55,644 bases of DNA from Candidatus Omnitrophota bacterium (GTDB taxonomy: Bacteria; Omnitrophota; Omnitrophia; JAHJGZ01). The notes below the pieces were generated by a model that was not told the origin of the DNA, searched no databases, and saw nothing but the letters and a program-made list of their open reading frames with translations. Position numbers and translations under genes: made by a program. This document shows positions 10,692 to 54,734 of this stretch, one piece after another; within the stretch, counting starts at the first letter, position 1; each line of letters begins with the position of its first letter. Location of the stretch: NCBI GenBank assembly GCA_018823795.1, contig JAHJGZ010000134.1, positions 1-55,644 on the forward strand, given 5' to 3'.

Positions 10692-10752
10692 TTAATTCGC
10701 AGACGGCCTAACGGCCTATATTTTACATCGCTATCCTAATGCCGTAAATTAT
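10692..10752. repeat. Dispersed intergenic module, copy A
   Basis: TTAATTCGCAGACGGCCTAACGGCCTATATTTTAC matches the sequence at 18323 at 32/35 positions; followed by ...GCCGTAAATTAT. Confidence 0.75.
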
Positions 10753-10764
10753 AATCGAAGCCAG

Positions 10765-11041
10765 CCCCGTTAGAGATGCAACATGTATTATATATACATA
10801 TTACGAAGTAAAAAAGATAATCGTTTTATATACAGGTTTTACACGTGATTTACGGAAACGCTTCAGTCAGCATAATAAAGGGGCTATTGTTGCGACAAAA
10901 AGAAGGAAACCGTTTGAACTTATTTATTATGAAGCGTGTTTACATAAAGAAGACGCAATTAAGAGAGAAAAGTATTTAAAAACGGGGATGGGAAAACGTT
11001 TTTTACAAAATAGACTGAAGCGCTTCCTATCTCTAACGGGG
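10765..11041 (+). mobile_element. 277-bp TIR-bounded element containing GIY-YIG gene
   Basis: Perfect 13-bp TIRs CCCCGTTAGAGAT (10765-10777) / ATCTCTAACGGGG (11029-11041); subterminal inverted repeat GGAAACGCTTCAGTC (10854-10868) / GACTGAAGCGCTTCC (11013-11027). Confidence 0.85.
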
Positions 11042-18103: not shown

Positions 18104-18150
18104 TGTGTCCAGCACCCAGTATATAAAACGGATTCTGGGTGCTGGATACA
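18104..18150. repeat. Inverted repeat/hairpin
   Basis: TGTGTCCAGCACCCAG (18104-18119) / CTGGGTGCTGGATACA (18135-18150), 15/16 complementary. Confidence 0.85.
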
Positions 18151-18324: not shown

Positions 18325-18381
18325 AATTCGCAGACGGCCTTACGGCCTACAATTTACGTCACATATGTTCCGTAAATTGTC
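18323..18381. repeat. Dispersed intergenic module, copy B
   Basis: TTAATTCGCAGACGGCCTTACGGCCTACAATTTACG...CGTAAATTGT; 32/35 match with 10692 copy. Confidence 0.75.
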
Positions 18382-29273: not shown

Positions 29274-29408
29274 CCCCGCTAGAGATAAAATTATGGTTTC
29301 ATTAATTAGCATGTGTGAAGTGAAAAAGTATAATTAATTTATAAAATGATTATGAAAAATACGGAAACGCCTCAAAACAAATAATAGCGTTTCCTATCTC
29401 TAACGGGG
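29274..29408. mobile_element. 135-bp non-autonomous relative of the GIY-YIG TIR element
   Basis: TIRs CCCCGCTAGAGAT (29274-29286) / ATCTCTAACGGGG (29396-29408); GGAAACGC (29363-29370)/GCGTTTCC (29387-29394) subterminal hairpin; TGAG flanking duplication 29270-29273/29409-29412. Confidence 0.8.
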
Positions 29409-32400: not shown

Positions 32401-35400
32401 TCGTCTATTAAATGGCAACGCGAAAAGATATCGCCGCAGTGTATGAAAATAAGAGGAGTGATAAGGAGTGCGTCGGTGCACCAGGAATGGCTATTTGAGG
32501 CAAAAGAAAACGAGTTGGAAATTAAGCTGCTGATGGAAGCTGATGATAGTGAATTTTCAAATGCGCAGGTAGTTATACTTGCGCATAAAGAGTATAACGA
32601 ATGGTTTTTAAATAAAAGTAATGGAAAATGTTTTGATATTAAGCACGATGTGCGGTGGGAAGATATCCCGCTCCCGAGTGATGCGGAAATGGAATTCTTT
32701 GCTATGACTGCTAAGCAAAAAAACATTCCCGGTCTTATGGTGGCTGGTTGTATGAATCAGGGTATACAACTTAATCTTTCTAATACGACCCAGCAGGGCG
32801 TGGGGCGTGCATTGCGTTTTGTATCGAACAAAAAACTTTCGCGGGAAGAATTTCATGTGCGATTTGCTTTTTTATCTACGAAGCGTCTGCATAAACTGAT
32901 CAGTGAGAAGCAAAAAACACTTGTTGAAAAGAATAGCATCACCGCGGGTCGAATCAAGATATTATTTAATGATGACCGATTAAGCATTTATGCGGACGGA
33001 AAAGAACTTTCGGGCGGGGTTGGATTTTACAGTTTATTGCAATCGAATCATAATTGGTACAGTTCATCAACGATTAAGTGGGAGATGGAGAAGGTTGCGC
33101 CGCGGTGCATGAAATTGACCGGTTGTATGAAAAGTATTTCAGTAAAACAAGAGATATTGTTTGAAGTAGGAGAAAAAGGATTTGAGATAAAAGTAATGAT
33201 AGAAGCAGAGGGAAAGAAGACATTTTCACAACCGCAGGTTGTTGTATTGGTAAATCAAGAATATGAGGAATGGTTTTACAATATGACGCAAGGGCGGTGT
33301 TTTGATTTTAAATATGATACGGTGTGGGAAGAGATACCATTGCCTGATGAGAAGGAGGTTGCGTTTTTTGCGTTAGCGGCGAAAGGGGAGGACAAACCAG
33401 CCTTTCTGTTTACCGATTGCACGAAGAATGAGAGAGGAAGAGTGGCGTTGTATAACACATTAGAGCACGGAGCGGCCCGAGCGATAGGGTATATATCAAA
33501 CGTACAAGCATCACGAGAAGAATTTTGTGTACGATTTGATCTTGTCGCTAAAGAAGAGCTCCAAAGGATTCTTCGGATGAGGATGACGGAGGTGCTTGAA
33601 TCACGAAGCATCCAATCAGGGCCGTTGCAGGTGGTCTTTGAAGCTGAGAAGTGGAAGGTTTTGTATAAAGGGGAAGAAGTAACCGCGGGGATAGGTTTTT
33701 ACAGTTTATTACAATTAAATAATATTTGGTACAACTCATCAGGGATTAAGTGGGAGCGGGAAAAATTATCATCTCAGCGTATGAAGTTAAAGGGAACGCT
33801 GCAGAACACAACGGTACAACAGGAATGGCTTTTTGAGATAAGGGAGAGCGGATTAGAAATTAAGCTTTTAATAAAATCAACGGATGGAAGTGGGTTTACC
33901 AACACGCAGTTTGTCATGATGGCAAACAGGGAATACAACGAATGGTTTTATAACGTTGACTACGGGAAGTGTTTAGATTTTAGATATGATACATCATTTG
34001 AAGAGATATCATTACCGAATGACGAAGCAGTAGAATTATTTGCGTTGACAGCTGAGCAAGAACATATGCCAGCACTTATTCTTACGCCGTTAGATAGGAA
34101 TAGTAGTGACATGAGATTATCGTTGGGGAATATACGACAACGAGAGATCGGCCGTGCAGTGAGTGTCATTTCAGAAGAGAAGGTAACGGAGATGGCATAT
34201 CGTATACGATTTGATTTTGTTGGTAAAACGATTATCCGCAAAATTATGCATGCGATGCTCGGATTACGCCTCATAGACGTATTAATGATGTTTGAATCAA
34301 GAAGTATACAAGACGGAACATTACAAGTGTTGTGCGAGGAAAGCCGAATGCGGATATATATATATGGTGAGGAAATAACAGAAAATGTTGGATTTGCGAG
34401 TTCCTTACAAATAAATGGCAGTTGGTATAATTCATTAACGATTCAATGGATACAAAAGAAAATATCACAACGGAGCATGAAATTAACGGGTTTTCTGGAA
34501 AATACTTCTATTATACAAGAGGTCCTTTTTGAAATAAAAGAGAATCAATTAGAAATTAATGCGGTTATCGAGGCAACTGACAAGAGAACATTTTCACAAA
34601 CGCAATTTAGATTTTTTATAAATAAAAAATATAAAGAATGGTTTTATAACATAAATAGTGGAAAGTGCTTCGAGTTTATGCCTGATACAACATGGGAAGA
34701 GATTCCGTTACCGAATGAAACGCCCGCAGATTTTTTTGCTATAACAGCTGAGAACGAAAATGTTCCCGCACTCATGGTGACTGACTGTACACAGAACCGC
34801 AATGTGAAACTATCTCTTTATAATGCAGTACAGCCATATGCAGCCCGTGTTTTAAATTTTTCTATAAATACAGATACAATACGCGAAGATGTTCATGTGT
34901 GTTTTAATTTTGTTTCCAAAGAGATGATTGATCATGTAATGCAAACTATCTCTGTGCTGCGTATGATCGAAGTAATATCTATCTTTGATTCTAACAGTAT
35001 AACATCTGGTCTCCTACAAGTGCTTTTTGAAGAGCATGCAACAAGAATTTTTTATGACGGGAAAGAAGTTACCGAAAGTATAGGGCTTTACAGTTCAGTA
35101 CAATGCGGTGATTTTATATATGATATTTCGAAATTTCAATGGAAGAGGCAGAAAGTAACATCCTCAAGTATGAAATTAATCTGGGAGGCAAAGAATTTGC
35201 CTATCATTCAAGCATGGATGCTTGAAGTTAAAGACAATACGTTAGAAGTACAAATAATGATCACAACAAGTGAAAACAGCTCATTCTCATATCCACAGTT
35301 TGGTTTTTTAGTAAATAGCGTGTATGACAGATGGCTTTATAATATTACCACTGATAATGGTATTGACTGTAAGTCAGATTCTACATGGGATGAACATTCT

Positions 35401-39058: not shown

Positions 39059-40284
39059 GCCGTTTCAGTAATAGATATAAAAAAATAAGGCGTACTGTTT
39101 TGGAGATTATTGGAGCATTTGACGGAGTTTTTGCTTATAAAGGACCTCGATGTGTTCAAATTGATTTAACCAATGCGTGTAACAATAACTGCATCGGGTG
39201 CTGGTGCAATTCGCCATTGCTCGATGATTATAAGCAGACCTCTGATGCCACATTGCCAACAGATATGGTCCTTTCATTGTTAAATGAACTTAAAAACATG
39301 GGAACAGAGGAGATCTATTTTGCTGGAGGTGGTTAACCTTTTATGCATCCTGAAGCAATGAGGATTATTTCATATGCAAAGAAAAAAGGATTTATCGTAT
39401 CGATAAACACTAATTTTACTCTTGTAACAGAAGATATTGCACGGTACTTGGTAGAGAACAAGGTAGATCATCTTATTGTAAGCTTATGGGCAGGAACACC
39501 CGATGTATACGCTCAAACACATCCCAATAAAACTGAGGAAACATTCTATGAAATTAAATCATGTTTACAGTTTCTTAATCGTTATAAAAGGAGAAGAGAG
39601 AATGTTCCCTGCATTAAGATTTATAACGTCGTTTTTAATATGAATTACCAGAATTTTCCGTCTATGATTGATTTTGTCGTTGCCACCGAGTCTGAAGCGG
39701 TTGAGTTTACCCTCATTGATACGATTCCGGGGAAGACGGATAAACTTTTGCTTTCTGAAAAGCAGGCCGAAGAATTGCTTTTTATGGCAAAAAAACTTAA
39801 AGAGCAATTTGATAATGAAAATAATACTATATGTCTAGAAAATTACGAAACATTTTTAAGAAGACTTTCAAGCTCGTGTCAGGGAAATGGGGAATATGAT
39901 CGGGATATTATGCAAACAATCCCGTGCTATGCCGGTTGGACATTTGCGCGTATTGTTGCAACCGGTGATGTAAATTCATGCCTTAAATCACACCGCATTC
40001 CTATTGGGAATTTGCATAAAGAAACATTTCGTTCACTGTGGAATAGTGCACGGCAGCAGGAATTTCGGAGGAAGACAAGACGCTTCGATATTCATGACCC
40101 GTATTTTCGATTGATTGGTAACGATACCAATGCGGCTGTTGGGTGTTTTCGCAGCTGCGATAATATCGGACATTCACTTTTGTTACATAATAAAATTACT
40201 CGTTTAAATAAACCGGTAAAAGCAATTTTAAAAACGATGGCGGCTGTCGGTCGAACACGGAATTCTTTGTCTACAAGGAACTAA
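39055..40284 (+). pseudogene. Radical SAM/SPASM-like protein split by in-frame TAA at the GGE motif
   Basis: ORF 39055-39336 (NACNNNCIGCW CX3CX2C ... YFAGGG*) and ORF 39343-40284 are in the same frame; TAA at 39334-39336 followed by PFMHPEAM; C-term CYAGWTFARIVATGDVNSC fits CX12GX4C. Confidence 0.85.
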
Positions 40285-40285
40285 T

Positions 40286-41338
40286 ATGACACCTGGTACG
40301 TTATTGAAAGAGAAACAGCATACGACACAGACGGTATCTCCGTCGTTCTGTTGTTTTGGTATTGTTGATGAATGCATGTTTCGATGTAAAATGTGTTTCA
40401 AGTGGCAAGAAGATCGTTTGGTGAAGAAGGGGGAGGTGGTACCGTTTGATGCGTGGAAAAGGGCCATTATTTCTTTAAAACGCATCGTACCAAAACCAAA
40501 TGAATTTGTAATAAATTTTGGGGGTGGGGAAGCGCTCTTGAGAGATGATATCCTTGATCTAGTACGCTGTGCATCAGAAGAAGGCTTTATTACTAATATT
40601 GCTTCAAACGGATGGCTCATTAATGATCATATGGCACAGCGTATTGCTCAATCCGGTTTACGAACGATTAATCTTTCATTAGATAGTTTACGGGAAAATG
40701 TTCATGATGAGATGCGCGGGCAAAAAGGGGCAGCAAAACAGGTTTTCTCTGCCATTGATTGTCTACGACGTTATTCGAGGAGGTTAGAAATTGGAATTTG
40801 TACGGTACTTTATGATTCAAATATGAACGATATCCTCCCGCTTATTAAGTGGGTGCAAAAGAATGAGAAGGTGAATTGGATTGTATTCATGGCCGCAATG
40901 CAGCCAAACAATACACCGGTGGAAGAGAAATGGTATGAGGAAAAATTCTCATCTTTATGGCCACAACGAAAAAGAAAGATAACACGGCTTATTAACTATA
41001 TTAAGTGGCTTAAATGGTGGGGATGGAAAATCCAAAATCCGTATCATCAGCTTGATGCTTTTAAAAGATATTTTTCTCATCCGGAACAGTTTGTGAAAAA
41101 TCGTCCGTGTAATATGGACCGGGCAGTTCATATTAGTGCTACGGGAGATATCTTTTTATGTTTCCGATGGCAGCGGATAGGAAATATTACAACCGATGCT
41201 ATCAAGGATGTATGGCATTCTCAAGCGGCAGAGAAGGTGAGAGGAGACATCCGGCAATGTCAGGATAATTGTCATTTTCTTCTCAATTGTTTTTTTGAAA
41301 AGGAAACCTTTCCTTTTTTACCAATGAATACGAACTGA
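40286..41338 (+). CDS. Radical SAM protein, LWP-family, SPASM-like C-terminus
   Basis: CMFRCKMC, GGGEALL, SSLWPQ, CNMDRAVHISATGDIFLC, CQDNCHFLLNC. Confidence 0.9.
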   Translation: MTPGTLLKEKQHTTQTVSPSFCCFGIVDECMFRCKMCFKWQEDRLVKKGEVVPFDAWKRAIISLKRIVPKPNEFVINFGGGEALLRDDILDLVRCASEEGFITNIASNGWLINDHMAQRIAQSGLRTINLSLDSLRENVHDEMRGQKGAAKQVFSAIDCLRRYSRRLEIGICTVLYDSNMNDILPLIKWVQKNEKVNWIVFMAAMQPNNTPVEEKWYEEKFSSLWPQRKRKITRLINYIKWLKWWGWKIQNPYHQLDAFKRYFSHPEQFVKNRPCNMDRAVHISATGDIFLCFRWQRIGNITTDAIKDVWHSQAAEKVRGDIRQCQDNCHFLLNCFFEKETFPFLPMNTN

Positions 41339-41375
41339 GAATAAAAGTATATTTTTTTATTGAGGGATACTAGGT

Positions 41376-42425
41376 ATGGATAGTTCAATAACGCAAAATA
41401 TGAAAAGTGAAAGCCAGAAGAAAAGCATCAGCAAACCAGGTTTCTGCTGTTTAGGGATTATTGATAACTGTATGTTGCGATGCAAAATGTGTGAGAAATG
41501 GAAGGATGATTTAGTAACGCAAGGAATGACTGAGGCTACGACGGATCAGTATAAGACTTTTCTTCAACAGCTACGCACCATTACCGATGAGGGGTTTGAG
41601 CTTGATATTGGTGGTGGCGAGGCTCTGATGCGACCTGACCTTTTGGAGCTTATTTCATATGCGCGTGATTTAGGGTTTAAAACGACGGTTGCATCAAACG
41701 GATGGCTCATTGATAAAGAAATGGCGCGGCGTATTGTTGAAAGTGGTCTTACGAGTATTATTTTGTCATTTGATAGTCTGAATTCAGAAGTTCATGATTC
41801 GATGCGTGGCGTACAAGGTGTTCATGCACGTGTTGTGCAAGCGATAGAATATCTCCGTCTCTTTTCGAAGGATATTCATATCGGACTGTGTACGATTATC
41901 ATGGAAAAAACCTTAGACGGGATTATTGAACTTGTCGAATGGTCAAATAGCAGGCGAGACAAAATTAATTCAATTCTTTTTATGGCTGTTATGCAACCAA
42001 ATAATACGGTTAAACAAGATAAATGGTTTGACCAGGACTTTAATACTATCTGGCCACAGGATACCAAGAAAGTTGTCGCTTGTATCGATGAATTAATTCG
42101 CCGGCGTAATGAGGGACAGTGGATCGCAAATTCGGTTGAACAACTTAAAGCATTCAGATTGTATTTTCAACAGCCAAATAAATTTGTTAAGAAGACAGCG
42201 TGCAATATGGATCGTGGGCTTCATATAAGTGCTGTTGGCGATATTTTTCTTTGTTTTAAGTGGGACAATCTTGGCAACATAAAAAATGGTGCGGACATAA
42301 GCCAGGTTTGGTATTCAAAAGAAGCTGAAACGGTGCGAGAAAATATTCGTCAATGCAAAGATAATTGTCATTTTCTTCTCAATTGTTTTTTTGAGGGAGA
42401 TTATCCGTTTAAATGTGATGTGTAA
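41376..42425 (+). CDS. Radical SAM protein, LWP-family, SPASM-like C-terminus
   Basis: CMLRCKMC, GGGEALM, NTIWPQD, CNMDRGLHISAVGDIFLC, CKDNCHFLLNC. Confidence 0.9.
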   Translation: MDSSITQNMKSESQKKSISKPGFCCLGIIDNCMLRCKMCEKWKDDLVTQGMTEATTDQYKTFLQQLRTITDEGFELDIGGGEALMRPDLLELISYARDLGFKTTVASNGWLIDKEMARRIVESGLTSIILSFDSLNSEVHDSMRGVQGVHARVVQAIEYLRLFSKDIHIGLCTIIMEKTLDGIIELVEWSNSRRDKINSILFMAVMQPNNTVKQDKWFDQDFNTIWPQDTKKVVACIDELIRRRNEGQWIANSVEQLKAFRLYFQQPNKFVKKTACNMDRGLHISAVGDIFLCFKWDNLGNIKNGADISQVWYSKEAETVRENIRQCKDNCHFLLNCFFEGDYPFKCDV

Positions 42426-42449
42426 TTAATTTTTTAAAAGGTATTTGTT

Positions 42450-43487
42450 ATGGAACAAAGTGGACCACGCATTGATACGGTAAAGAAGCAGTCGATTGAA
42501 AAACCTGCATTCTGTTGTATTGCAGCGACCGACTATTGTATGTTGCGATGTAAGATGTGTAATAAATGGGATGAACCGCTTCCAAAGGCTGATGAAGTGC
42601 CGACACTCGATGAATGGAAACGCTTTATTACACAATTTCGGGATTTAGTTGATGAAGGTTTTGAACTTGATTTTGGCGGCGGAGAAGCTCTTTCTATGCC
42701 GGGGATTCTTGATCTTGTGGCCCATGCGAAAAAGCAAGGGTTCCGGACAACCATTGCATCAAATGGATACTTAATAAATAAAGAAATGGCTAAGTGGATA
42801 GGATCATCAGGCCTTGATGCAGTCAGTTTGTCATTAGACAGCGCTCGCCCTGCATTACACGACCGCATGAGAGGAACAGAAGGTGTCTATCAACGTGTTA
42901 TGGATGCACTTAATAATTTGACCCGTTATGCGCCACATACTCAAAAAGGATTATGCTGCGTTATTATGAACGAAAACATTGATGAACCCCTGCGTCTGGT
43001 GAGCCTGGCAGAGGAGAATAAAAACGTTAACTGGCTTTATTTTATGGCGGTTGTCCAACCGAATTACAGTGGGCCCCTCAATGATCAGTGGTTGGATGAA
43101 TTTCAATGTCTATGGCCGCAGAATATTGACAAGACAATGCATGTGCTTGATGAGCTGATAAAACTGAAACAACACGGCTCAAAGATTAGTAACAGGGTTG
43201 AACATTTACGTGCCTATAAAGCATATTTTAATAATCCTGCACAGTTTGTAAATAAAGCTCAGTGTATTGTTGGCGGCAGAGCACTCAGTGTGAATAGTTA
43301 TGGATTTATTCAAATGTGTCTTTTTAAGGATTTTATCGGAAATATACGTGAACATGACATTAGAGAGCTTTGGTATTCGCAGGATGCCGATCTTATGAGA
43401 GAAAAAGTAAAACAATGTACGTCGAATTGTCATTTGTTGCTTAATTGTTGTTACATTGAAGATGATGAAGAGCTGTATAAAGAGTAA
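42450..43487 (+). CDS. Radical SAM protein, LWP-family, SPASM-like C-terminus
   Basis: CMLRCKMC, GGGEALS, QCLWPQN, CIVGGRALSVNSYGFIQMC, CTSNCHLLLNC. Confidence 0.9.
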   Translation: MEQSGPRIDTVKKQSIEKPAFCCIAATDYCMLRCKMCNKWDEPLPKADEVPTLDEWKRFITQFRDLVDEGFELDFGGGEALSMPGILDLVAHAKKQGFRTTIASNGYLINKEMAKWIGSSGLDAVSLSLDSARPALHDRMRGTEGVYQRVMDALNNLTRYAPHTQKGLCCVIMNENIDEPLRLVSLAEENKNVNWLYFMAVVQPNYSGPLNDQWLDEFQCLWPQNIDKTMHVLDELIKLKQHGSKISNRVEHLRAYKAYFNNPAQFVNKAQCIVGGRALSVNSYGFIQMCLFKDFIGNIREHDIRELWYSQDADLMREKVKQCTSNCHLLLNCCYIEDDEELYKE

Positions 43488-43496
43488 TGTTTATTT

Positions 43497-44513
43497 ATGA
43501 ATCAAGAAACATATCATAATACAAAGCCACGTTATTGCTGTTGGGTACTTAATTACCGCTGCATGTTTCAATGTCGCATGTGCTACATTTGGAAAACAGC
43601 GCAAGACAAATGTGAAACAACGCTTGAGGAGAAGAAGCGTTTTGTCGACTCACTGGTTGGATTTGTTAACACTGATTTTGAATTTCATCTTTCTGGCGGC
43701 GAACCGTTGGTAACAGAAGGGATTTACGATATTATACGCCATATTTATCAGTATGGCTTTAAGATAAACCTTGTTACGAATGGATGGCTCGTTGATGAGC
43801 GTGTTGTTGAAAATCTTAGTAGTGCAGGACTGTCGTCTCTTACTTTTTCCGTAGATGGCATACAGGCTGCTACCCATGACTTCCTCAGGGGAAAAGCCGG
43901 ATCGTATGAACGAATAATGAAAGCATTATCTATTACAAAAAAGATACGCGGTGATATGAAAATATCAGTTTTATCTTTAATTACCGGGCATAACGTGGAT
44001 GAAATTTTGCCACTTGTTGATTGGGTGCAAGCTCGTGCTGAGTTAGATATGATCAGCTTTCAGGCTATCACCCAGCCATTTTCTAAAGCACGTGATGATT
44101 ATTGGTTTGAAAAAGAAGAAGATAGATTTTTATGGCCGCACGATAGTGCAAAGGTTTCACGTATTATGGATGAATTGCATGCTAGAAAAAAGAACGGACA
44201 GAAGATTGGGAACCATCCGAATCATTTTATCCACTTCAAACGTTACTTTGAAAATCCTAACCGGTTCTTGAAAACAATAAAATGTAATCTTGGCGATTAC
44301 GAGTTTCACGTTGATCCGTATGGCAAAGTCTTTTTTTGTTGCCTTACTCAGCCAATTGGTAATATCACGACTGATTCACTGCCGAATCTATGGGGATCGC
44401 CTCAAACACGAACCATACGAGATGACGTCTATCACTGTAAACAAAATTGTCACATTATGATTAATTGTTTTTTTGAGAATGAACTCATATTGCAGGATGA
44501 GGGAAAACAATGA
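43497..44513 (+). CDS. Radical SAM protein, LWP-family, SPASM-like C-terminus
   Basis: CMFQCRMC, SGGEPLV, RFLWPHD, CNLGDYEFHVDPYGKVFFC, CKQNCHIMINC. Confidence 0.9.
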   Translation: MNQETYHNTKPRYCCWVLNYRCMFQCRMCYIWKTAQDKCETTLEEKKRFVDSLVGFVNTDFEFHLSGGEPLVTEGIYDIIRHIYQYGFKINLVTNGWLVDERVVENLSSAGLSSLTFSVDGIQAATHDFLRGKAGSYERIMKALSITKKIRGDMKISVLSLITGHNVDEILPLVDWVQARAELDMISFQAITQPFSKARDDYWFEKEEDRFLWPHDSAKVSRIMDELHARKKNGQKIGNHPNHFIHFKRYFENPNRFLKTIKCNLGDYEFHVDPYGKVFFCCLTQPIGNITTDSLPNLWGSPQTRTIRDDVYHCKQNCHIMINCFFENELILQDEGKQ

Positions 44514-45583
44514 GATTGTTAACGAAGTTTTTTAAAAAAGAAAAAGCGCCGATTCTTCACAAAGAAGGCAAGAAAATACCGTCCTTTTGCCTTCTGGTCG
44601 TCAATAAACAATGTAATTTTCACTGTCGCATGTGTAATATGTGGAAACATACAGAAGATCCGAGCTCGTTAACGCTCGATGAAATGAAACAATTTGTTAG
44701 CGATTTGCGCTCGTTTGTTGATGAATCGATTTTTATTCATCTTATTGGTGGAGAAACGCTTTTATGGCCACACACGGTAGAACTGGCAAAGTTTATAACC
44801 GATACTGGTTTTAAAACGTCAATTACCACCAACGGCTATCTGATTGATGAACGAATGGCAGAACAACTGGTCAATTCTGGTATGAGCGGAATTTTTATTT
44901 CACTGGATAGTTTGGATGAGGTAAAGCATGACTTCATTCGAGGGATGAAGGGAAGTTATGCTCGGGTTATGAAGGCTATTGATAATCTGTCCACCTATCG
45001 TGCACGTTACTACACCGACACGAGTATTGGTCTTACCTTTACGCTCATGCAGCATAATATCGATGAGGCACTCGACTTTACTGATTGGGTGCAAGAAAAT
45101 AAAAAAATTGATTCACTCTTTTTTAATGCAGTGCTTCAACCGTTTGATAGCGGTGAAGAGAGTAAAAATTGGTGGCAGCGGGAAAAATATAAAGAAATTT
45201 GGCCGCATGACCTTGATGCCGTACATCATGTAATAGATAAGTTAATTGAACGAAAAAGGAACAATGGCTCTAAAATATGTAATCCTCCCGAGCAATTACG
45301 TGTCCTTAAAGAATATTTTAAAGATCCTTATCGTTTTCGACACAATATGCGGATTAAGTGTACGAGAGGGGATTTGGCGCCGGAAGTCAATGCCTCTGGT
45401 GATATTTCGATGTGTTTTTATAAGGAACCGCTCGGCAATATTCGCAAAGACAATATACGTGATGTTTGGTTTAGTGATGCAATGGTGCGAGCACGAGAAC
45501 ATATTAACCAGTGTGATATGGAGTGTGATCTAGCGGCGAATTGTTTTTACAAGATAGAAAACATTACGGACTATGTGAAATGA
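44510..45583 (+). CDS. Radical SAM protein, LWP-family, SPASM-like C-terminus
   Basis: CNFHCRMC, IGGETLL, KEIWPHD, CTRGDLAPEVNASGDISMC, CDMECDLAANC; ATGA overlap with previous gene. Confidence 0.9.
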   Translation: MRLLTKFFKKEKAPILHKEGKKIPSFCLLVVNKQCNFHCRMCNMWKHTEDPSSLTLDEMKQFVSDLRSFVDESIFIHLIGGETLLWPHTVELAKFITDTGFKTSITTNGYLIDERMAEQLVNSGMSGIFISLDSLDEVKHDFIRGMKGSYARVMKAIDNLSTYRARYYTDTSIGLTFTLMQHNIDEALDFTDWVQENKKIDSLFFNAVLQPFDSGEESKNWWQREKYKEIWPHDLDAVHHVIDKLIERKRNNGSKICNPPEQLRVLKEYFKDPYRFRHNMRIKCTRGDLAPEVNASGDISMCFYKEPLGNIRKDNIRDVWFSDAMVRAREHINQCDMECDLAANCFYKIENITDYVK

Positions 45584-46581
45584 TAACGGATGCAAAAAAT
45601 ATAAAAACGCTTCAAGCACCCAAAACGTGTTTGTTGACGGTTTCAAACACCTGTCATCTTAAGTGTCATATGTGCGACTTGTGGAAAAAAGATACGCGGG
45701 ATGAAGAGATGTCGATTGATGATGCTAAACGATTCATTGCTGCGTTGCAGGAATTTGGAGGTGGCCCCATAGAACTACATCTTATCGGTGGGGAGACGTT
45801 TGTCAAAGAAGGAATATTTGATCTTATTACGTTGGCACGAAAGAACGGCGCACGAGTTGTTGTGACGACGAGCGCCTACTCTATTACACGAGAAGTGGCA
45901 AAAAAAATAGTGCAATCTGGTTTGAACATGATCAATTTTTCTCTTGAAAGTCTCAACGCTGACACCCATGACTGCTTACGAGGTGTTCTCGGTGTTCATG
46001 AAAAGGTTATAAATGCTATTCAGTATGTTGCAGAAGAATCAACATCCATAGAAATGGCAATTAATACTATTATTACGAAGCAAAACATTCATGATTTGAT
46101 TCCTTTAGTCGAATGGGTGAATAGTCATGAGCGACTTTCTCAGATTTATTTTATGGCAGTAATGCGGCCATTTGGTTCTGATTTAGATGTAGATTGGTAT
46201 GATACCGAACGAGCAACCGCATTATGGCCTGACGATTCGATAACTATTAACAACGTACTAGACCGTTTGATAGAGATGAAACAAGACGGTGCCAAAATAG
46301 GAAACTCGGCAGGACAGCTACGAACATTTAAATCGTATTTTGAAAATCCGACAAACGTTATTAAACAACAAGGATGTAGACTTGGTGATGATGCCCTGAA
46401 TATTAATGCCATTGGTGATGCGTATCTTTGTTTTTTTATGGAAAAGTTAGGCAATATTCAAAAGCAATCTCCATGTGAAATGTGGTTTTCAGAAAAAGCG
46501 CATCAAATCCGTAAGAACATGAGACAGTGTAATCGAAATTGTGAATTAATCATAAACTGCTATTACAAAGATGAACAATAA
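45580..46581 (+). CDS. Radical SAM protein, LWP-family, SPASM-like C-terminus
   Basis: ORF track starts at 45541 but the ATG at 45580 (ATGA overlap with the previous stop) is the likelier start; CHLKCHMC, IGGETFV, TALWPDD, CRLGDDALNINAIGDAYLC, CNRNCELIINC. Confidence 0.88.
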   Translation: MITDAKNIKTLQAPKTCLLTVSNTCHLKCHMCDLWKKDTRDEEMSIDDAKRFIAALQEFGGGPIELHLIGGETFVKEGIFDLITLARKNGARVVVTTSAYSITREVAKKIVQSGLNMINFSLESLNADTHDCLRGVLGVHEKVINAIQYVAEESTSIEMAINTIITKQNIHDLIPLVEWVNSHERLSQIYFMAVMRPFGSDLDVDWYDTERATALWPDDSITINNVLDRLIEMKQDGAKIGNSAGQLRTFKSYFENPTNVIKQQGCRLGDDALNINAIGDAYLCFFMEKLGNIQKQSPCEMWFSEKAHQIRKNMRQCNRNCELIINCYYKDEQ

Positions 46582-46635
46582 GGAAAAGGGGCTATCAAAA
46601 TATTGAAACATTGGTAGCGAAGCGCGGCTGAGCAT

Positions 46636-47739
46636 ATGATTCGTTTTTTAAAAAAATATTGGATTATTTTATTATTGTTTATATTTATTTTAGGTGAATT
46701 TGCTATTCGCTATTCCCCTTTAAAATATTATCCTAATTGGAACTTTAGGATACGTATGTACCAATGTATTCGGTGGAATATAGAAAGGCACACAAATTTA
46801 TTTCAAAACCACACATATAACACAAGCGAAATCTTTTTCAATCCCAAAAACGAATATAAGATTAAACATATTGTTCGTAAACCTAGTGATACTGTTCGAA
46901 TTATATGTTTAGGGACCTCGTCTACTCAAGGGTGGCCCAACGCTATCTCGTATCCGCAGATATTAGAGGAGTTGTTAAAAAAAAATCTAAAACAAAAGAA
47001 TCTGAAAAATTCCAAAACGTACGAGGTTATTAATGCGGGAGTGGGAGGGTATAATTCTTTTAAAGTGTTAATTTATTTTAAAGATATTCTGCTCAAATTT
47101 AATCCTGACATAGTAACTCTTTATTTAGGTAGCAATGATAGCAACTATCCGTCTTGTAATAACTTAACGGATAAAGACGTCTATGAGTATATTAAAACAT
47201 CGGTCAATAAGTATCCATCAGTAAATTCTAATTACAACTTAACGACTTTCTTGTCTCTGTCACCTTTTGTTGCAAACGATGTAACATATAAAATTCTTAA
47301 GCAGCTTTATAAAAGCCGACTTTTTTTTGCTGTGAGCAATGGTGTCGGATACCTGAAAAACAAAATAAAGAATAAAAACGTGATGGAGGTTCCTCCCGAT
47401 CTATTTAAAGAAGTATTAACGGAATTTGTTACTCTAGCAAAAAACAATAATTTTACTCTCGTTATTATTCCGGAAGCACATAGTCTTTCCGAGCCTGAAA
47501 TTTTGCAGCAAATTAGTATCATGGAAGAGATAGCTTCTCGATATAATATACGTCTGATTGATGTACAGAGTGTGCTGCGTAGAAGTCGTGATAAGAAGGT
47601 ATTTCATGATTATGTGCATCCTACAGTGTTGGGGCATAAAATAATCGCACAAGAGATATATGAATCATTGGTAGCTACATATCCAGTGCTTTTTTCTGAA
47701 CTACCCAAAATATCAAATCGCAACGATAACAAAGTATAA
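46636..47739 (+). CDS. Membrane-anchored SGNH/GDSL-like hydrolase
   Basis: N-term TM; CLGTSSTQGWPNAISYPQIL (Ser), YLGSNDSNYPS (Asn), FHDYVHPTVLGHKIIA (Asp/His). Confidence 0.85.
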   Translation: MIRFLKKYWIILLLFIFILGEFAIRYSPLKYYPNWNFRIRMYQCIRWNIERHTNLFQNHTYNTSEIFFNPKNEYKIKHIVRKPSDTVRIICLGTSSTQGWPNAISYPQILEELLKKNLKQKNLKNSKTYEVINAGVGGYNSFKVLIYFKDILLKFNPDIVTLYLGSNDSNYPSCNNLTDKDVYEYIKTSVNKYPSVNSNYNLTTFLSLSPFVANDVTYKILKQLYKSRLFFAVSNGVGYLKNKIKNKNVMEVPPDLFKEVLTEFVTLAKNNNFTLVIIPEAHSLSEPEILQQISIMEEIASRYNIRLIDVQSVLRRSRDKKVFHDYVHPTVLGHKIIAQEIYESLVATYPVLFSELPKISNRNDNKV

Positions 47740-47743
47740 AAAA

Positions 47744-48766
47744 ATGAAAAATATTTTCAGCGAGCTTGAAAGTGAAAAGAAAATATCGGGGGAAAAAAGC
47801 TATCCAACGTCATGCTCATTGGTAGTCCTTAATCGTTGTCTTTTACAATGCAAGATGTGTCATATGTGGAAAGCTCCACGTGTTGACGATGAAGTGACCA
47901 TCGAAGAATTGAAACGTTTTGTTTCTACGGTTAAGGATATGTTAGTAGGAGATAAGGAGTTAATTATTAGCGGAGGCGAACCACTCTTAAAAGAAGGAAT
48001 TTTTGACTTAATTAGACATGCATCCGATAGAGGATTAAAGACTATTATGCCAACAAACGGTTATTTGATCACTGAGGAGGTAGCAAAGCGTTTACATGTA
48101 TCAGGACTGAAAGAAATTTTTATTTCACTTGATAGTAATAACCCGGCAACACACGACTTTTTGCGAGGGAAAGACGGCTGTTTTGAACGTGTTATGAAAG
48201 GCATTGAATATTTACATGCGTATTGCAGGGGGCTTCGTATTAATTTTTTAACAGTAATTTCAAATAAAAATTTACATGAAGTCATTACACTACTTCACGA
48301 GATAGAAAATGATAAACGAATTTCGGGTGTTTATTTTCAGGCCATTGCCACTCCTTTTTTTACCGGCTTAGGGGAAGATTGGTGTGAGAATGAAGAATTT
48401 GGCTGTCTGTGGCCGCATGAATATGAAAAGGTGGTAGATGTTATTGATGAAATCATTCATCTAAAACGCGAAAAAAATTATATGGTGCATAATCATCATC
48501 AACATCTAGAACTTTTTAAACGGTATTTTAAAAATCCACATTGCCGTGTTGAAAAACGGGGATGTTACCTTGGCGATTCTGTTATTAATGTTGATCACGT
48601 CGGAAACATTAACTTGTGTTGTTTTGATCAGCCCGTTGGCAACATCAGAACAAATGATATACAAAGGCTTTGGTTTTCAGACGATGTTAAGGGGCGGCAA
48701 GCGGTGATGCATCAGTGTGAGAGAAATTGTCATAATTTAGTAAACTGTTTTTTTAAGCCCCGTTAG
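47744..48766 (+). CDS. Radical SAM protein, LWP-family, SPASM-like C-terminus
   Basis: CLLQCKMC, SGGEPLL, GCLWPHE, CYLGDSVINVDHVGNINLC, CERNCHNLVNC; stop codon TAG lies within a mobile-element TIR. Confidence 0.9.
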   Translation: MKNIFSELESEKKISGEKSYPTSCSLVVLNRCLLQCKMCHMWKAPRVDDEVTIEELKRFVSTVKDMLVGDKELIISGGEPLLKEGIFDLIRHASDRGLKTIMPTNGYLITEEVAKRLHVSGLKEIFISLDSNNPATHDFLRGKDGCFERVMKGIEYLHAYCRGLRINFLTVISNKNLHEVITLLHEIENDKRISGVYFQAIATPFFTGLGEDWCENEEFGCLWPHEYEKVVDVIDEIIHLKREKNYMVHNHHQHLELFKRYFKNPHCRVEKRGCYLGDSVINVDHVGNINLCCFDQPVGNIRTNDIQRLWFSDDVKGRQAVMHQCERNCHNLVNCFFKPR

Positions 48767-48892
48767 AGATTATGTGAAAGTATAGATATTTATTATTTTT
48801 ATAGCCAGTTTTAAAAATAGATGAAGTGATGTCGCATACAAATTACGGAAACACTTCAAGATGAACAGAAGCGTTTCCTATCTCTAACGGGG
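48758..48892. mobile_element. 135-bp non-autonomous relative of the GIY-YIG TIR element
   Basis: TIRs CCCCGTTAGAGAT (48758-48770) / ATCTCTAACGGGG (48880-48892); GGAAACACTTC (48847-48857)/GAAGCGTTTCC (48868-48878) hairpin. Confidence 0.82.
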
Positions 48893-48915
48893 TAAAGATG
48901 GCAAGATAGAAACCT

Positions 48916-51117
48916 ATGAAAAGCAAAAACAACGAAATTACCTGGGCAGGACAAAAAGATGAAATGTCCTTTTGGCAGCGCATGCTTGATACTATGGGCA
49001 GCGTGTATGGTGAGGGTGTGAAAGCACCGTTTCGGAGTAAAAAACTTCGTTCATGCGACCTCATCATTACTGAGAAATGTAATTTGAGATGTACCAAATG
49101 TTTTTCATGGAAACACAATCAGCATAATGGATTGAGTATTCGACAATGTAAATCGATCATTGATTCACTCAGTAAAACCGGGGAACGTCCTTTTGAAATT
49201 AATCTGGGTGGGGGAGAACCACTTTTAATAGACGGCATTATTGATCTTATCAAGTATTGTAGAAAGAAAGGGCTTAATCCGGCACTTTCCACTAATGGAA
49301 CGTTGCTTACAAAAAATATGGCCAAGCAGTTAGCATTAAGCGGACTTGCCAGGTTAAGTATTTCATTGGATAGTTTACATCCAGACTCACATGATACGTT
49401 AAGTGGGGTCAAAGGATCGCATAAGAAAGTGATGGAAGGAATTCAGGCGATAACAGATTGTTGGAAGCGTGGTATGCTCAACATTCATACGGTGTTAACC
49501 GAAGTTAATCTGGACAGAATTATTGATCTTGTTGAATTTGTTAATCATCATAAGGTGTTAAGCGGCATTAATATCCAGGCACTGGCACAGCCATTTCATA
49601 CACCACTACAGGCGGATTGGTACAAAGATGAACAATTTGCTTTTTTGTGGCCGAATAATATAACAAAAACTCATGCTGTTTTGGACCGATTAATCGAGTG
49701 TAAAAACAAAAATTTTAAAATTATTAACCCGACACATCAATTTAAAGTCTATAAACTCTATTATCAATATCCTAAACGTTTTTCACGTAAATTCCGATGT
49801 AATTTAGGTGATTATAACGTGACGATCAATTCAAAGGGAATAGCACATCTGTGTCCTTTTAAAAAAGCATTATGCGATGTGACGAATAAAAAGTTAGAAA
49901 AACTTTGGTATTCATATCATGCTTCAAAACTTCGCTATGCTATGTACAATTGCCGCACGAGTTGCAATAACATACTCAATTGTTATTTTGAAGAAGAGAA
50001 CATAGATGCTTTTTTTATCGATACCGAGCAACAGAAACAAAATAGCAAAAGTTCCATTGTGGTTGTGGAGAATGACTTGAAAACGGGAGAAAAATCAGCT
50101 GTTCGGTTTTGTAATCTTTTGATAACACCGTGTTGTAATCTTGACTGTAAAATGTGTTACATCGGACGTAGCAGCAAAGAGAAGAAAAAACATTTTCACG
50201 CTCATGGTTTATCGATAAAGGAATGGCGGTGGATTATTCATTCACTACATCTCTTAGGCAATAAGAACATGCGTGTTTATTTCAGTGGCGGAGAGCCTCT
50301 TTTGTGGAAGGGCATCTTTAATCTAATTGCATTTGCTTATCGTAAAGGACTTTTTACCATGATTGGAACGAGTGGTTCCTCTCTGCATTATTACACGTTG
50401 CAAAGGATCCTTGCTTCCGGTCTTAATTTTCTCGAACTTTCTCTTGATAGTCATGATGCCGCAATACATGATTACCTAAGAGGGAAGAAGGGAATCCATA
50501 AGCGACTGATGAACGCTGCCACATGGCTCCATATGAAGAAGAAAGACCTTGAGATCGGCATTAGCTGTGTTATTTCTAAAGTGAATCTGGCCGGGCTACT
50601 GTCATTTGTTGATACAATTGAGCGTGATGATCGTTTCTCAAGTATCTATTTTCAAGCGTTAGTTCAACCATATGACAGCCCACCACAAAAAGAATGGTAT
50701 CGATTAAAAGAGTTCTCATTTTTATGGCCAGATGATAAGGAAGCGCTTAATTATGTATTTGACGAATTGATCGTACGGAAGCAGAAAGGAAATTCTAAGA
50801 TAGGTAATTCACCTGAGCAGCTTCGTTTGTATCAGTATTATTATAACAATCCTGAAGACATTAACCGTGTCAAAACATGTACTCTTGATGCTTCGGCTAT
50901 AACAATTAACTGGCTTGGCTATGTAAGCTATTGTGATTATTTAGGTCCCCTGGGAAATGTGAAGGATTTTCATCTTGAGCAGCTTTTAACCTCAACGATG
51001 TCAGATATTAGAAAACAAGAAATAAAGCAGTGTCAGATTTATTGTAATTCTGTTGGAAATATAATGATTCAACCTGAAAAGCGAGAAGAGGTGTCCTGTG
51101 CCTACAGAAATGCATAG
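48916..51117 (+). CDS. Double radical SAM protein (two LWP-family domains in one ORF)
   Basis: Domain 1 CNLRCTKC...GGGEPLL...AFLWPNN...CRTSCNNILNC; domain 2 CNLDCKMC...SGGEPLL...SFLWPDD...CQIYCNSVGN. Confidence 0.9.
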   Translation: MKSKNNEITWAGQKDEMSFWQRMLDTMGSVYGEGVKAPFRSKKLRSCDLIITEKCNLRCTKCFSWKHNQHNGLSIRQCKSIIDSLSKTGERPFEINLGGGEPLLIDGIIDLIKYCRKKGLNPALSTNGTLLTKNMAKQLALSGLARLSISLDSLHPDSHDTLSGVKGSHKKVMEGIQAITDCWKRGMLNIHTVLTEVNLDRIIDLVEFVNHHKVLSGINIQALAQPFHTPLQADWYKDEQFAFLWPNNITKTHAVLDRLIECKNKNFKIINPTHQFKVYKLYYQYPKRFSRKFRCNLGDYNVTINSKGIAHLCPFKKALCDVTNKKLEKLWYSYHASKLRYAMYNCRTSCNNILNCYFEEENIDAFFIDTEQQKQNSKSSIVVVENDLKTGEKSAVRFCNLLITPCCNLDCKMCYIGRSSKEKKKHFHAHGLSIKEWRWIIHSLHLLGNKNMRVYFSGGEPLLWKGIFNLIAFAYRKGLFTMIGTSGSSLHYYTLQRILASGLNFLELSLDSHDAAIHDYLRGKKGIHKRLMNAATWLHMKKKDLEIGISCVISKVNLAGLLSFVDTIERDDRFSSIYFQALVQPYDSPPQKEWYRLKEFSFLWPDDKEALNYVFDELIVRKQKGNSKIGNSPEQLRLYQYYYNNPEDINRVKTCTLDASAITINWLGYVSYCDYLGPLGNVKDFHLEQLLTSTMSDIRKQEIKQCQIYCNSVGNIMIQPEKREEVSCAYRNA

Positions 51118-52144
51118 AGATGTTTTTGTAGATGAACGTGATAAACATATTCGTAAAGATGTGATGAAACCACACTGTTGTGACTTTATTGTATTAGAAA
51201 ATTGTATGCTTAGTTGCAAAATGTGTCACATGTGGAAATGCAAAGAAAATTATAATCAGGTGCCCGCTCTTTATTATGAAAAATTTATTGAATCACTCTA
51301 TGAATATTTTGGCTCTGAGATGCAAATTCAGATGGTAGGAGGAGAGCCACTTCTTAAACCGGGGATCATTGATCTTATTACAACTGCATCGAAAAAAGGT
51401 TTTTTTACGACACTGACATCAAATGGCTATCTTATTGATAGAAAAATGGCAAGTGCACTGATCGATGCACGTATTTCTTCTATAGCGCTCTCTCTTGATA
51501 GTTTAGATAGTGCTATTCATGACTTTCTTCGTGGAAAGCAGGGGGTTCATAAACAAACGATGAAGGCATTGAAATATCTTACACAATACCGGTATCCGGA
51601 ACAGAGCGTTTGTATTGTGACGACCATAATGCAGCCTAATCTTGACGATCTTATTGCTCTGGCTGATTGGGCTGAAGGTCATTCAGGGATTGCGTGTATC
51701 AGTTTTCAAGTCCTGTCACAACCATTTTATACCAAAGAAGACGTGTCGTGGTATAAAAATCCAAAGTTTTCATTTCTGTGGCCACAACGCGAGAAAGAAG
51801 TTTTTTCTGTCATCGATGCATTGATTGAACGCAAACAAAAAAAGAAAAAAATAGGAAACTCTGTTAATCAATTAAATATATTTAAGAAATATTTTCAGAA
51901 TCCTGAACAATTTGTGAAAAAGGGCGGTTGTCATTTAGGATACAATTCATTGAGCGTAAATTCATCTGGCAATATCTATCTTTGCTTTGAACAACCACCG
52001 ATCGGCAACATTATGCGAGATCGCATAGAAGATGTATGGGAATCACCGATTGCACATGACGTACGCTCACGAATTAAAGCATGTAACCGAAACTGTAAAT
52101 TAATGATTAACTGTTTCAGCGAAGAAGGATTTTCAATTGAATGA
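51098..52144 (+). CDS. Radical SAM protein, LWP-family, SPASM-like C-terminus
   Basis: CMLSCKMC, VGGEPLL, SFLWPQR, CHLGYNSLSVNSSGNIYLC, CNRNCKLMINC. Confidence 0.9.
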   Translation: MPTEMHRDVFVDERDKHIRKDVMKPHCCDFIVLENCMLSCKMCHMWKCKENYNQVPALYYEKFIESLYEYFGSEMQIQMVGGEPLLKPGIIDLITTASKKGFFTTLTSNGYLIDRKMASALIDARISSIALSLDSLDSAIHDFLRGKQGVHKQTMKALKYLTQYRYPEQSVCIVTTIMQPNLDDLIALADWAEGHSGIACISFQVLSQPFYTKEDVSWYKNPKFSFLWPQREKEVFSVIDALIERKQKKKKIGNSVNQLNIFKKYFQNPEQFVKKGGCHLGYNSLSVNSSGNIYLCFEQPPIGNIMRDRIEDVWESPIAHDVRSRIKACNRNCKLMINCFSEEGFSIE

Positions 52145-53565
52145 GTAAGCCTAATTCAGTCTTATTAGTCCAGTCCCCTCCATGGGGTGTTTCAACCGTG
52201 CCATTAGGTGTAGCGTACCTTTCTACGTATTTACGCTCAAAAGGTATTTCAGTCGAGGTATTAGATCTTAATATTAATCTATATCGCAATGCCGCATTTG
52301 ATATACGGGAACGGTGGAGCACCAACGAATTTGAATATTGGGCATCTGGAGATATTCTTAAAGATACATGGTTCAATATTGAAACAATCGTTCAAGATAT
52401 TGTGAAACGGGATATACACGTCGTGGGTTTTTCAACCACCTTTGCTAGTATTCCGTTTCTTAATGAAATTATACAAATATTACGTGCGGCCAAGCCTGAT
52501 ATTACCATTATCGTGGGGGGGGGCGGCCCTTCGTATCGTGTACACCGTAATTTTTTTAGAAAAGATCTGGTAGATTATTTTATTATCGGTGAAGGGGAGG
52601 TTCTGTTATATGAACTTATTAAGCAACTATGGGCCGGCCATTCATCTTTTATCAATGCGACCTGTCATGAATGGAAAGATGAGCCTCGAGATCGGGCTTT
52701 ATGCCTTCAGGGCAAAAGAGCAACAAACCTCGATGAACTTCCATTTCCGACATTTGAAGAGTTTGATATTGAGAAATATATCGAAACAGATCTTTTGCCT
52801 ATTGTGATTTCTCGTGGATGTATTAATGCGTGCCACTTTTGCTGTGATTGGTTATTGAAAAGGCCGTATCGTGTGCGAAAACCCAACGTAATAGTAGACG
52901 AAATACAATGGTTAGTTTCCCGATATGGACGTCGACGGTTTGAATTTAGTGATCTTTTGGTTAACGGTGATTTGCAGAATTTTGAGACATTATGTGATTT
53001 ATTAATACGGAGAAAAATCAATATTGTATGGGGTGGACAAGCGACAGTAAGAAGTGAGATGACGCAGGAGCATTTTTTAAAAATGAAAGAGGCAGGATGT
53101 GGTGGCTTGACCTTTGGTTTTGAAAGTTTTTCTAATTCTCTTCTTAAGAAAATGAATAAGCATTTTACTGCTGCTGATGCAGCGGGTGTCATTCGGAGGG
53201 CAAAAAAAGCAGGAATGCTTGTTGAGGCAAATTTTGTTGTTGGATTTCCTGGTGAACAAGAAAGTGACATTGATGAAACGATTACATTTTTAAAAGAAAA
53301 TCGTGCTTTCATTGACCGTGTTAATAGTCTCAATATTTGTAGCATCGGACCTGGTATGAATATATGGGAAAGAGCGGAAGATTTTGGCATAAATAAGGAT
53401 ATTGTTAACGATTGGTATGCATGGCATACAGAAGATAAACAGAATACGATTGAAATACGAATAGATCGTCACAAAAGGCTTAAAACATTTATAGAAACTG
53501 AAGGATTTGGTCTTTCCTGGCAAAACATACGGAAAAATGAGCAAGAGATAAAGAGAGCGGTATGA
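52141..53565 (+). CDS. B12-binding domain radical SAM protein
   Basis: LLVQSPPWGVSTVPLGVAYLSTYLRSKGISVEVLDLN, SRGCINACHFCCDW (CX3CX2C). Confidence 0.9.
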   Translation: MSKPNSVLLVQSPPWGVSTVPLGVAYLSTYLRSKGISVEVLDLNINLYRNAAFDIRERWSTNEFEYWASGDILKDTWFNIETIVQDIVKRDIHVVGFSTTFASIPFLNEIIQILRAAKPDITIIVGGGGPSYRVHRNFFRKDLVDYFIIGEGEVLLYELIKQLWAGHSSFINATCHEWKDEPRDRALCLQGKRATNLDELPFPTFEEFDIEKYIETDLLPIVISRGCINACHFCCDWLLKRPYRVRKPNVIVDEIQWLVSRYGRRRFEFSDLLVNGDLQNFETLCDLLIRRKINIVWGGQATVRSEMTQEHFLKMKEAGCGGLTFGFESFSNSLLKKMNKHFTAADAAGVIRRAKKAGMLVEANFVVGFPGEQESDIDETITFLKENRAFIDRVNSLNICSIGPGMNIWERAEDFGINKDIVNDWYAWHTEDKQNTIEIRIDRHKRLKTFIETEGFGLSWQNIRKNEQEIKRAV

Positions 53566-54734
53566 TAACAAAACTCGATGAAAACACGCCGAAGATTGAT
53601 AAAACACAGCAGATAAACAAACCTAACTCCTGCGTTTTATTGCTTACATTAAGTTGTAACCTAAAATGTAAAGTGTGTCAGTTATGGTGTAACAAGGAAG
53701 ATCGCACTCATTTTCCTTCGCTTGATAAATGGAAAGCCTTTTTGGATTCTATAGAATATTTTATTAATAAGCCATTCACCCCGTTAGAGAATGCTGCTCA
53801 AGGGGAAAAGAATACAATTAAAAACAATGCCAATAGTAATGATACGGCAATATTAATAAAATCTGTTAAGGAGCGTCCTCTAACGGGGTTCACCGTCATT
53901 TTTGGCGGAGGTGAACCGTTACTTTTTAAGGATGAATTGCTCGTGCTTATTGCCTATGCACATAACAAAGGATTTCGTACTTCACTTGCAACAAGTGGTT
54001 ATCATATGACTGAAGAAGCAGTGAAAGAATTATGTGCTGCGGGACTTGATTATATCGCGTTTAGTGTCTATAGCCTTAATGGTCGAAAACAGGATTTCTT
54101 AAGAGGTGTACCAAGCAGTCTTAAAAAGGTGAAGGAAGCAATTGCGTTGTTTTCCCAGCATGGTTCGCATGTTGAAATTGCTATTGATACGGTTCTTATG
54201 GAACCAAACAGGAAGGATATTGTTCGTTTGACAAAGTGGGTTTTAAAACACAAAAATATTTCACGAATCATGTTTCAAGCTGTTATGCAACCATTCCACA
54301 CAAAGCCGTTAGGAGATTGGTATTCCGATAAGGAATATTCTTTTCTGTGGCCTCGTAATGTAAAAAAGATGATAAAGATCATTGATAATTTGAAAAAACT
54401 CAAACGGAACGAAACGAAAAACGGTCAAGGAAAAGTAACAAATTCTATTGCTCAATTTGAAATTTTTAAGCAGTATTTCGAAACTCCAAATCGATTCATC
54501 AAAAATAAACATTGTCCAACTTCTGGCAACGGACATTTTGGTATTGCTCCGGATGGAGCTATTACCTTGTGCCCGTATATGAAGGGTATCGGTAATGTAA
54601 AAGAATATTCTCTTGAGCATCTTTGGTATTCTCAGACAGCGTGCGAGAGAAGGGAAGAAATTTATTCCTGTAGCCGTAATTGTCACCATATTGTTAATTG
54701 TTGGTATGAAGAGGAAATGTTTACATCCATGTAG
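53562..54734 (+). CDS. Radical SAM protein, LWP-family, carrying an in-frame mobile-element insertion
   Basis: CNLKCKVC, GGGEPLL, SFLWPRN, CPTSGNGHFGIAPDGAITLC, CSRNCHHIVNC; 38-codon insertion just before the GGE region. Confidence 0.9.
   Translation: MITKLDENTPKIDKTQQINKPNSCVLLLTLSCNLKCKVCQLWCNKEDRTHFPSLDKWKAFLDSIEYFINKPFTPLENAAQGEKNTIKNNANSNDTAILIKSVKERPLTGFTVIFGGGEPLLFKDELLVLIAYAHNKGFRTSLATSGYHMTEEAVKELCAAGLDYIAFSVYSLNGRKQDFLRGVPSSLKKVKEAIALFSQHGSHVEIAIDTVLMEPNRKDIVRLTKWVLKHKNISRIMFQAVMQPFHTKPLGDWYSDKEYSFLWPRNVKKMIKIIDNLKKLKRNETKNGQGKVTNSIAQFEIFKQYFETPNRFIKNKHCPTSGNGHFGIAPDGAITLCPYMKGIGNVKEYSLEHLWYSQTACERREEIYSCSRNCHHIVNCWYEEEMFTSM
53779..53888. mobile_element. 110-bp TIR element inserted in frame within an rSAM CDS
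   Basis: CCCCGTTAGAGA (53779-53790) / CTCTAACGGGG (53878-53888), TTCA duplication at 53775-53778 and 53889-53892. Confidence 0.85.

Follow-up and report, generated by a model that had tools for sequence, protein, structure and literature searches.

A mobile element family with inverted ends and TTYA target-site duplications inserted in frame in genes of Omnitrophota and other phyla

The last radical SAM gene of the window (the whole stretch of 55,644 nt analysed here, contig JAHJGZ010000134.1 of a Candidatus Omnitrophota bacterium) contains an in-frame insert of 110 bp. Judged by its sequence, this insert represents a nonautonomous (MITE-like) mobile element, of which the genome has dozens of copies, and belongs to a widespread, apparently undescribed family characterized by terminal inverted repeats (TIRs) and target-site duplications (TSDs). 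It is very probable that this family behaves like the Rickettsia palindromic elements (RPEs) but is apparently unrelated to them, that selection filters its copies for open in-frame insertions, and that prepilin leaders provide it with a safe harbour. The evidence consists of sequence and predicted structure and includes no transcript, protein or transposition data.

The following course of events is proposed. A recombinase preferring TTYA, whose existence is inferred, would insert the element with a 4-bp stagger; the TTYA target and the 4-bp duplication themselves can be read from the DNA. An insertion within a gene would persist only if element and duplication together amount to a multiple of three (3n) and the frame remains open. 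This pattern is found across phyla; the selection behind it is inferred. The host protein would gain a loop or linker of 10-65 residues, and survival is presumed to occur in surface loops. Insertions that are out of frame or contain stops would be lost from genes by purifying selection, again an inference. The preferred harbour would be the prepilin leader, in which the element may survive because its peptide is cut off.

In-frame palindromic elements have so far been treated mainly as a peculiarity of Rickettsia. Here, the same behaviour is displayed by a different element in several mostly uncultured phyla and in genes as critical as murE. The question whether mobile DNA seeds new protein segments can now be tested, as many independent insertions are available for which orthologues show the empty site. 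For annotation this means that, where predicted proteins of these phyla contain a 38-residue block of the type TPLE...LTGF, the block is mobile DNA and not a domain.

Table 1. Coordinates of the host gene, the inserted element and related elements in the window
Feature	Position	Strand	Remarks
Radical SAM/SPASM protein gene (host), 390 aa with insert	53562..54734	+	Pfam PF04055 and PF13186
TIR element, 110 bp, in frame in the radical SAM gene, peptide TPLENAAQGEKNTIKNNANSNDTAILIKSVKERPLTGF	53779..53888	+	absent from paralogues and orthologues
TTCA target-site duplication, left copy	53775..53778	+	
TTCA target-site duplication, right copy	53889..53892	+	
Left terminal inverted repeat CCCCGTTAGAGA	53779..53790	+	
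Right terminal inverted repeat, CCCCGTTAGAGG on the minus strand	53877..53888	-	
277-bp element, same ends, decayed GIY-YIG (URI-type) nuclease gene	10765..11041	+	candidate autonomous relative
135-bp element, shares ends and 3' part with the GIY-YIG element	29274..29408	+	TSD TGAG, intergenic
135-bp element, same class as 29274..29408	48758..48892	+	end gives the stop of the upstream radical SAM ORF 47744-48766

Copies, target site and candidate movers

With at most two mismatches, the 12-mer CCCCGTTAGAGA occurs 11 times in the window (1.8 expected; 11 reached in no shuffle). With at most one mismatch, it was found 114 times in the 3.19-Mb genome, compared with 11 for the reversed control. 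For the further analysis, stretches around TIR matches were used instead of the whole genome sequence. Its TIR pairs fall into size classes of about 95-110 bp, about 135 bp and 263-282 bp, the last with a single-domain GIY-YIG nuclease gene. When the 118-bp stretch of element and both TSDs was used as query in a BLAST-type search, matches elsewhere were only of TIR length, so that the family cannot be defined by its internal sequence alone. The 3' half of the radical SAM copy aligns with the pilin copies at C167, and on this alignment it is related to the pilin-leader copies of the same genome. The 135-bp class and the GIY-YIG members have in common their ends and the GGAAACGC...GCGTTTCC part. 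Of the features of a MITE, TIRs, a TSD and multiple copies without a transposase gene are present; as for an autonomous partner with the same ends, only the GIY-YIG elements described below come into question. The stop supplied by the second 135-bp element to the ORF preceding it reads CCCCGTTAG (P R stop). Other dispersed intergenic palindromes lie at 10700-10720, 18108-18145 and 18330-18350 (CAGACGGCCTWACGGCCTA, CAGCACCCAG...CTGGGTGCTG), and an ORF at 29428-37659 encodes 2743 aa with an N-terminal ABC-transporter ATPase followed by many repeated modules.

Across all organisms, the 4-mers flanking a TIR pair are identical in 122 of 179 cases versus 38 (maximum 61) in shuffles. They are nearly always TTTA or TTCA; rarer TSDs are CTAG, TTAG, CTAA and CTCA, and many pairs have imperfect TSDs. 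Since a varying tetramer agrees on both sides (TTTA/TTTA, TTCA/TTCA), it represents a true target-site duplication, which argues against a fixed flank of the IS200/IS605 type. Minimal members of 31 bp with little beyond one hairpin have identical TTTA flanks (loci L105, L106, L158, L164, L180). When 84,980 GTDB species genomes were scanned for the right end followed by TTYACC, at least 116 stretches matched. Among the matches listed are Omnitrophota, Patescibacteria (Uhr-, Kaiser-, Nealson-, Sung- and Levybacteria), Elusimicrobia, Planctomycetota including Scalindua, Nitrospiria, Deltaproteobacteria, Aerophobetes and others; one named carrier of the TIR family is Candidatus Velamenicoccus archaeovorus. 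By requiring TTYACC, this pattern is biased towards F-T frames; the modulo-3 result described below cannot arise from this. In 27 of 145 Omnitrophota genomes, the exact end plus TTYA was detected, with 80 matches in total and a single one in the reversed control.

The only gene found between these ends encodes a GIY-YIG nuclease and is carried by copies of 263-314 bp. In the decayed gene of the window, the last codons (SLTG) fall in the TIR. Better-preserved copies are present at C130 and C89 (L071, L092), the C89 copy being of the 282-bp type with an intact GIY-YIG protein, and GIY-YIG copies with these ends also exist in Omnitrophica 4484_171 and Parcubacteria RAAC4 (L176, L108). Inverted repeats of at least 11 nt flank 11 of 44 GIY-YIG genes in the class versus 2.3% of random pairs. 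These repeats include several other palindrome families, and GIY-YIG genes in the class are not in general flanked by the TIR described here. Therefore, the link is suggestive only, and the nuclease is a candidate mover that remains unproven.

Equally possible is an unlinked DDE transposase: The chances are about even that the family is moved by the enzyme of a YTAR-type IS (IS5 or IS701 kind) instead of the GIY-YIG nuclease. Duplications of 4 bp together with TIRs are typical of DDE elements, and the rarer TSDs of this family fit a YNNR target. On the other hand, a larger autonomous element, i.e. a TIR pair of 600-2500 bp with TSD and transposase, was not found in the loci examined, where GIY-YIG is all that the ends enclose. 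If the nuclease were the mover, its chemistry would be one by which TIR/TSD elements are not known to transpose. Several GIY-YIG elements end exactly at TAAAGGAG, where the next gene has its Shine-Dalgarno sequence. At L248, L254, L354, L356 and L340, other palindromes (CCCTTGACGTTTTGCCAT, ACCCAGCACCCAG, TGTCATTCCCGCGAAGGCGGGAATCC, ATCCAGACCGAGATCCTTCGGC) frame GIY-YIG genes, which suggests that small GIY-YIG genes and palindromic repeats are associated in general.

Elements in prepilin leaders

Using Pfam N_methyl, 21 prepilin-like genes were identified in this genome, 18 of them above the cut-off, plus one weak match. In 10 of the 21, an element is located exactly at the prepilin-peptidase motif G↓FTLIE, and its right end provides the residue that precedes the mature protein (...LTG↓FTLIE...). 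In one further gene, it is found higher upstream in the leader. Two of the ten motif-site genes contain tandem copies. In L067:6073-8479, two pilin genes display such copies head to tail and exactly one TSD apart (element-TSD-element-TSD).

The target TTYA corresponds to F-T of G↓F-T-L-I-E, and insertion duplicates F-T. At the right end, the last element codons CTA ACG GGG put Gly directly before the duplicated F-T, by which the prepilin-peptidase motif is restored; the left end gives G↓F-T-P-L-E and keeps Glu at +5. With Gly(-1) supplied by the final codon, GGG, prepilin peptidase is expected to cleave the leader as usual, and the inserted peptide would be lost along with it. This cleavage is inferred from the geometry of the motif. 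This adds a new idea, namely that the ends of the element correspond to a protease site and the insert would thereby be removed during maturation of the host protein.

Random placement among about 104,000 TTYA sites has a p of about 3e-31 for this accumulation. The value indicates only an order of magnitude, because copies may have been duplicated together with their genes: The pilin genes are clustered, and some of the cases may stem from duplication of genes that already contained the element. Among the 80 element ends found in the 145 Omnitrophota genomes, 16 are followed by FT[L/F][I/V]E (8 genomes, each of a different genus; none in the reversed control). The same junction is thus present in seven other Omnitrophota genera, and pilin cases were also detected in Patescibacteria, e.g. 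in Kaiserbacteria and Uhrbacteria. Some pilin copies (C167, C176, C62) contain stops or frame changes (indels) but hold an ATG. In these cases, the gene must start within the element, which supplies both start codon and leader. This means that not every copy is simply read through.

A more far-reaching hypothesis can be put forward only tentatively, and it is unlikely to hold. Protein processing at G↓FTLIE would serve as the excision step of the element, whose ends rebuild the peptidase site; from its prepilin harbour, the element would spread to other genes as open in-frame inserts, and a minimal GIY-YIG nuclease would be the mover. Little credence is given to the view that the prepilin copies are positively selected leader modules, for instance regulatory or chaperone-binding extensions, and not a parasite tolerated in its harbour. 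The element is present in about half of the pilin genes, and the C167 copies give different pilins a common start codon and leaders that resemble each other, M(Y/P)xKITxKSTVSFxKPxxxRSLTG. However, internal sequences differ between pilin clusters, pilins without the element are equally common in the genome, and the same family is also present in unrelated enzymes and in intergenic DNA.

In-frame insertions and comparison with known systems

For 132 elements with a perfect TSD, the host frame was taken on the empty site and, hence, independently of the element. For 38 of them, this site falls within a clear long ORF. In 36 of these 38 in-gene elements (29-191 bp), the length including the TSD is divisible by three, versus 47 of 94 outside clear long ORFs (p about 2e-15 against one third, 3e-9 against the 50% background). 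A survey of insert lengths modulo 3, which the sequence-only reading had proposed as a check, was thus strongly positive. The host frame through the element is likewise free of stops in 36 of the 38. For elements of at least 90 bp, this applies to 18 of 18 host frames compared with 12 of 36 in the two other TIR-open frames. Of the six possible host frames, three have no stop in TIRs and TTYA, and all but one in-gene insertion use these three orientations or frames. The readings are F-TPLE...LTG-F (26 insertions) and two of the NPVR...SNGV type (11). Since three different open readings are used, it is openness that is conserved, not the peptide itself.

Hosts in this genome comprise murE (the only one above the cut-off), murG of the mur cluster, a starch-synthase-like protein and an NHL protein. 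In other organisms, a DEAD helicase, SecA, UvrD, a P-type ATPase, cytochrome c and transglutaminase-like proteins are affected. In DapA, named from the sequence without a family search, the element is located right after Met-Phe. Hairpin-forming ends in essential genes such as murE would also fit a removal of the element at the RNA or translation level (splicing-like or by bypass, cf. mitochondrial byps), in which case the protein would never contain the insert. Such a removal would need neither a 3n length nor a stop-free frame, yet each is observed in 36 of 38 cases, and openness is specific to the host frame. It is therefore considered very improbable.

The suspicion that RPE-like logic operates here in a different family gained support from the in-frame position of these mobile elements with palindromic ends and from the 3n rule; no RPE sequence was compared. 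To our knowledge, RPE sequences differ from this element, and the ends look unrelated. Clear short TIRs, a 4-bp TTYA duplication and a range of 29-191 bp instead of one size distinguish the present family from RPEs. The same holds true for its preference for the prepilin cleavage motif, the longer relatives with a GIY-YIG gene and the occurrence in several phyla (Omnitrophota, Patescibacteria, Elusimicrobia, Planctomycetota, others). According to a review, RPEs are inserted in frame in unrelated protein genes including housekeeping genes, and the extra peptide is tolerated (Ogata et al., 2000, 2002, via PMC10969869). Both groups have in common a length of about 100-150 bp, palindromic character, multiple copies and in-frame positions in unrelated genes including housekeeping genes (PMC10969869). 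Because the family is not restricted to Rickettsiales and no sequence relation has been shown, the element is not filed as an RPE.

Similarity also exists to the MITEs ERIC and RU-1 to RU-3, small TIR elements that are mostly intergenic with some copies read within a gene (Delihas, 2007, PMC2759123; review PMC10969869). In contrast to them, the present family has different ends; nearly all of the in-gene copies that can be detected are 3n and open, and these copies affect core genes and occur in several phyla. Its 28-31-bp members resemble REP/RAYT palindromes (IS200/IS605-type TnpA), which are short hairpins beside a tetranucleotide (PMC2817692). However, a hairpin next to a one-sided fixed tetranucleotide without TSD is not what is found here: The same tetranucleotide is present on both sides and varies in concert, i.e. 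it is a duplication, and no Y1 transposase is linked to the family. Finally, the 277-bp element of the window and the copies in other genomes correspond to single-domain GIY-YIG (URI-type) nuclease genes framed by inverted repeats, for which no established transposition mechanism was found in a literature search. The search, which did not cover most subscription journals, revealed no earlier description of this element, of MITEs in prepilin leaders or of GIY-YIG palindromes.

The insert in the radical SAM protein

In the radical SAM gene, 53775-53892 reads TTCA-CCCCGTTAGAGA...CCTCTAACGGGG-TTCA. The ends of the element are CCCCGTTAGAG / CTCTAACGGGG, and the inverted ends are complementary to 83% over 24 nt. 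Element and TTCA duplication add 38 codons to the gene. From stop to stop, the host frame comprises 397 codons with the insert and 359 without the element and one TSD, and it is open both ways. The 38 residues are missing from all eight aligned neighbouring paralogues in the window. When 145 genomes of the phylum were searched, the two best orthologues (genomes G094 and G066; 47-48% identity) were found to align on both sides of the insert and to skip the 38 residues. At the equivalent place their DNA reads GATTTTAAT (L275) and GACTTTACG (L276), in a second excerpt GATTTTAATATG and GACTTTACGGTT; the TTYA target is present, but empty. Thus, the central proposal of the sequence-only reading, a 110-bp element that together with a TTCA duplication adds 38 codons, leaves the frame open and, once removed, lets paralogues align, was borne out by ends, TSD, copy number and empty sites. 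Homologous 38 aa in orthologues without TIRs, which would have refuted it, were not found. The alternative of ordinary protein sequence, a length-variable loop whose DNA has palindromic ends by chance, would suit the open frame and the tolerant place before β2, but has practically no standing given that the same ends occur genome-wide, the 4-bp duplications are exact, the radical SAM copy is akin at the DNA level to those in pilin genes and orthologues without the insert keep the target TTYA; this empty-site comparison rules it out.

In an AlphaFold2 model, the core of the protein has a pLDDT >90, whereas residues 76-106, which lie within the insert, are below 50. The insert connects helix 54-69 (together with a low-confidence helix 75-81) to strand 111-116 and is predicted to be a disordered loop before strand β2, which answers the earlier question whether the 38 aa could form a loop. 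In the radical-SAM fold, the active site is located at the C-terminal ends of the strands. Consequently, a loop before β2 is positioned on the far side, away from the active site. The description of the insert as lying next to a catalytic-core strand holds insofar as it precedes β2. A change of the catalytic core, however, is not indicated, as the insert is modelled as a disordered loop at the end remote from the active site. C32-x3-C36-x2-C39 (CxxxCxxC) and C318, C337, C370, C374 and C380 (SPASM cluster) are invariant in the alignment with orthologues. Most likely, the insert leaves the enzyme active; retained activity is inferred. A relative of the protein in the PDB was not detected by phmmer at E 0.001.

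About a dozen radical-SAM/SPASM paralogues are arrayed at 39343-54734, among them a two-domain fusion (48916-51117) and a radical SAM protein of the cobalamin-binding type (52141-53565). Similar arrays with many matches are present in four other Omnitrophota genomes (G094, G066, G051, G016).
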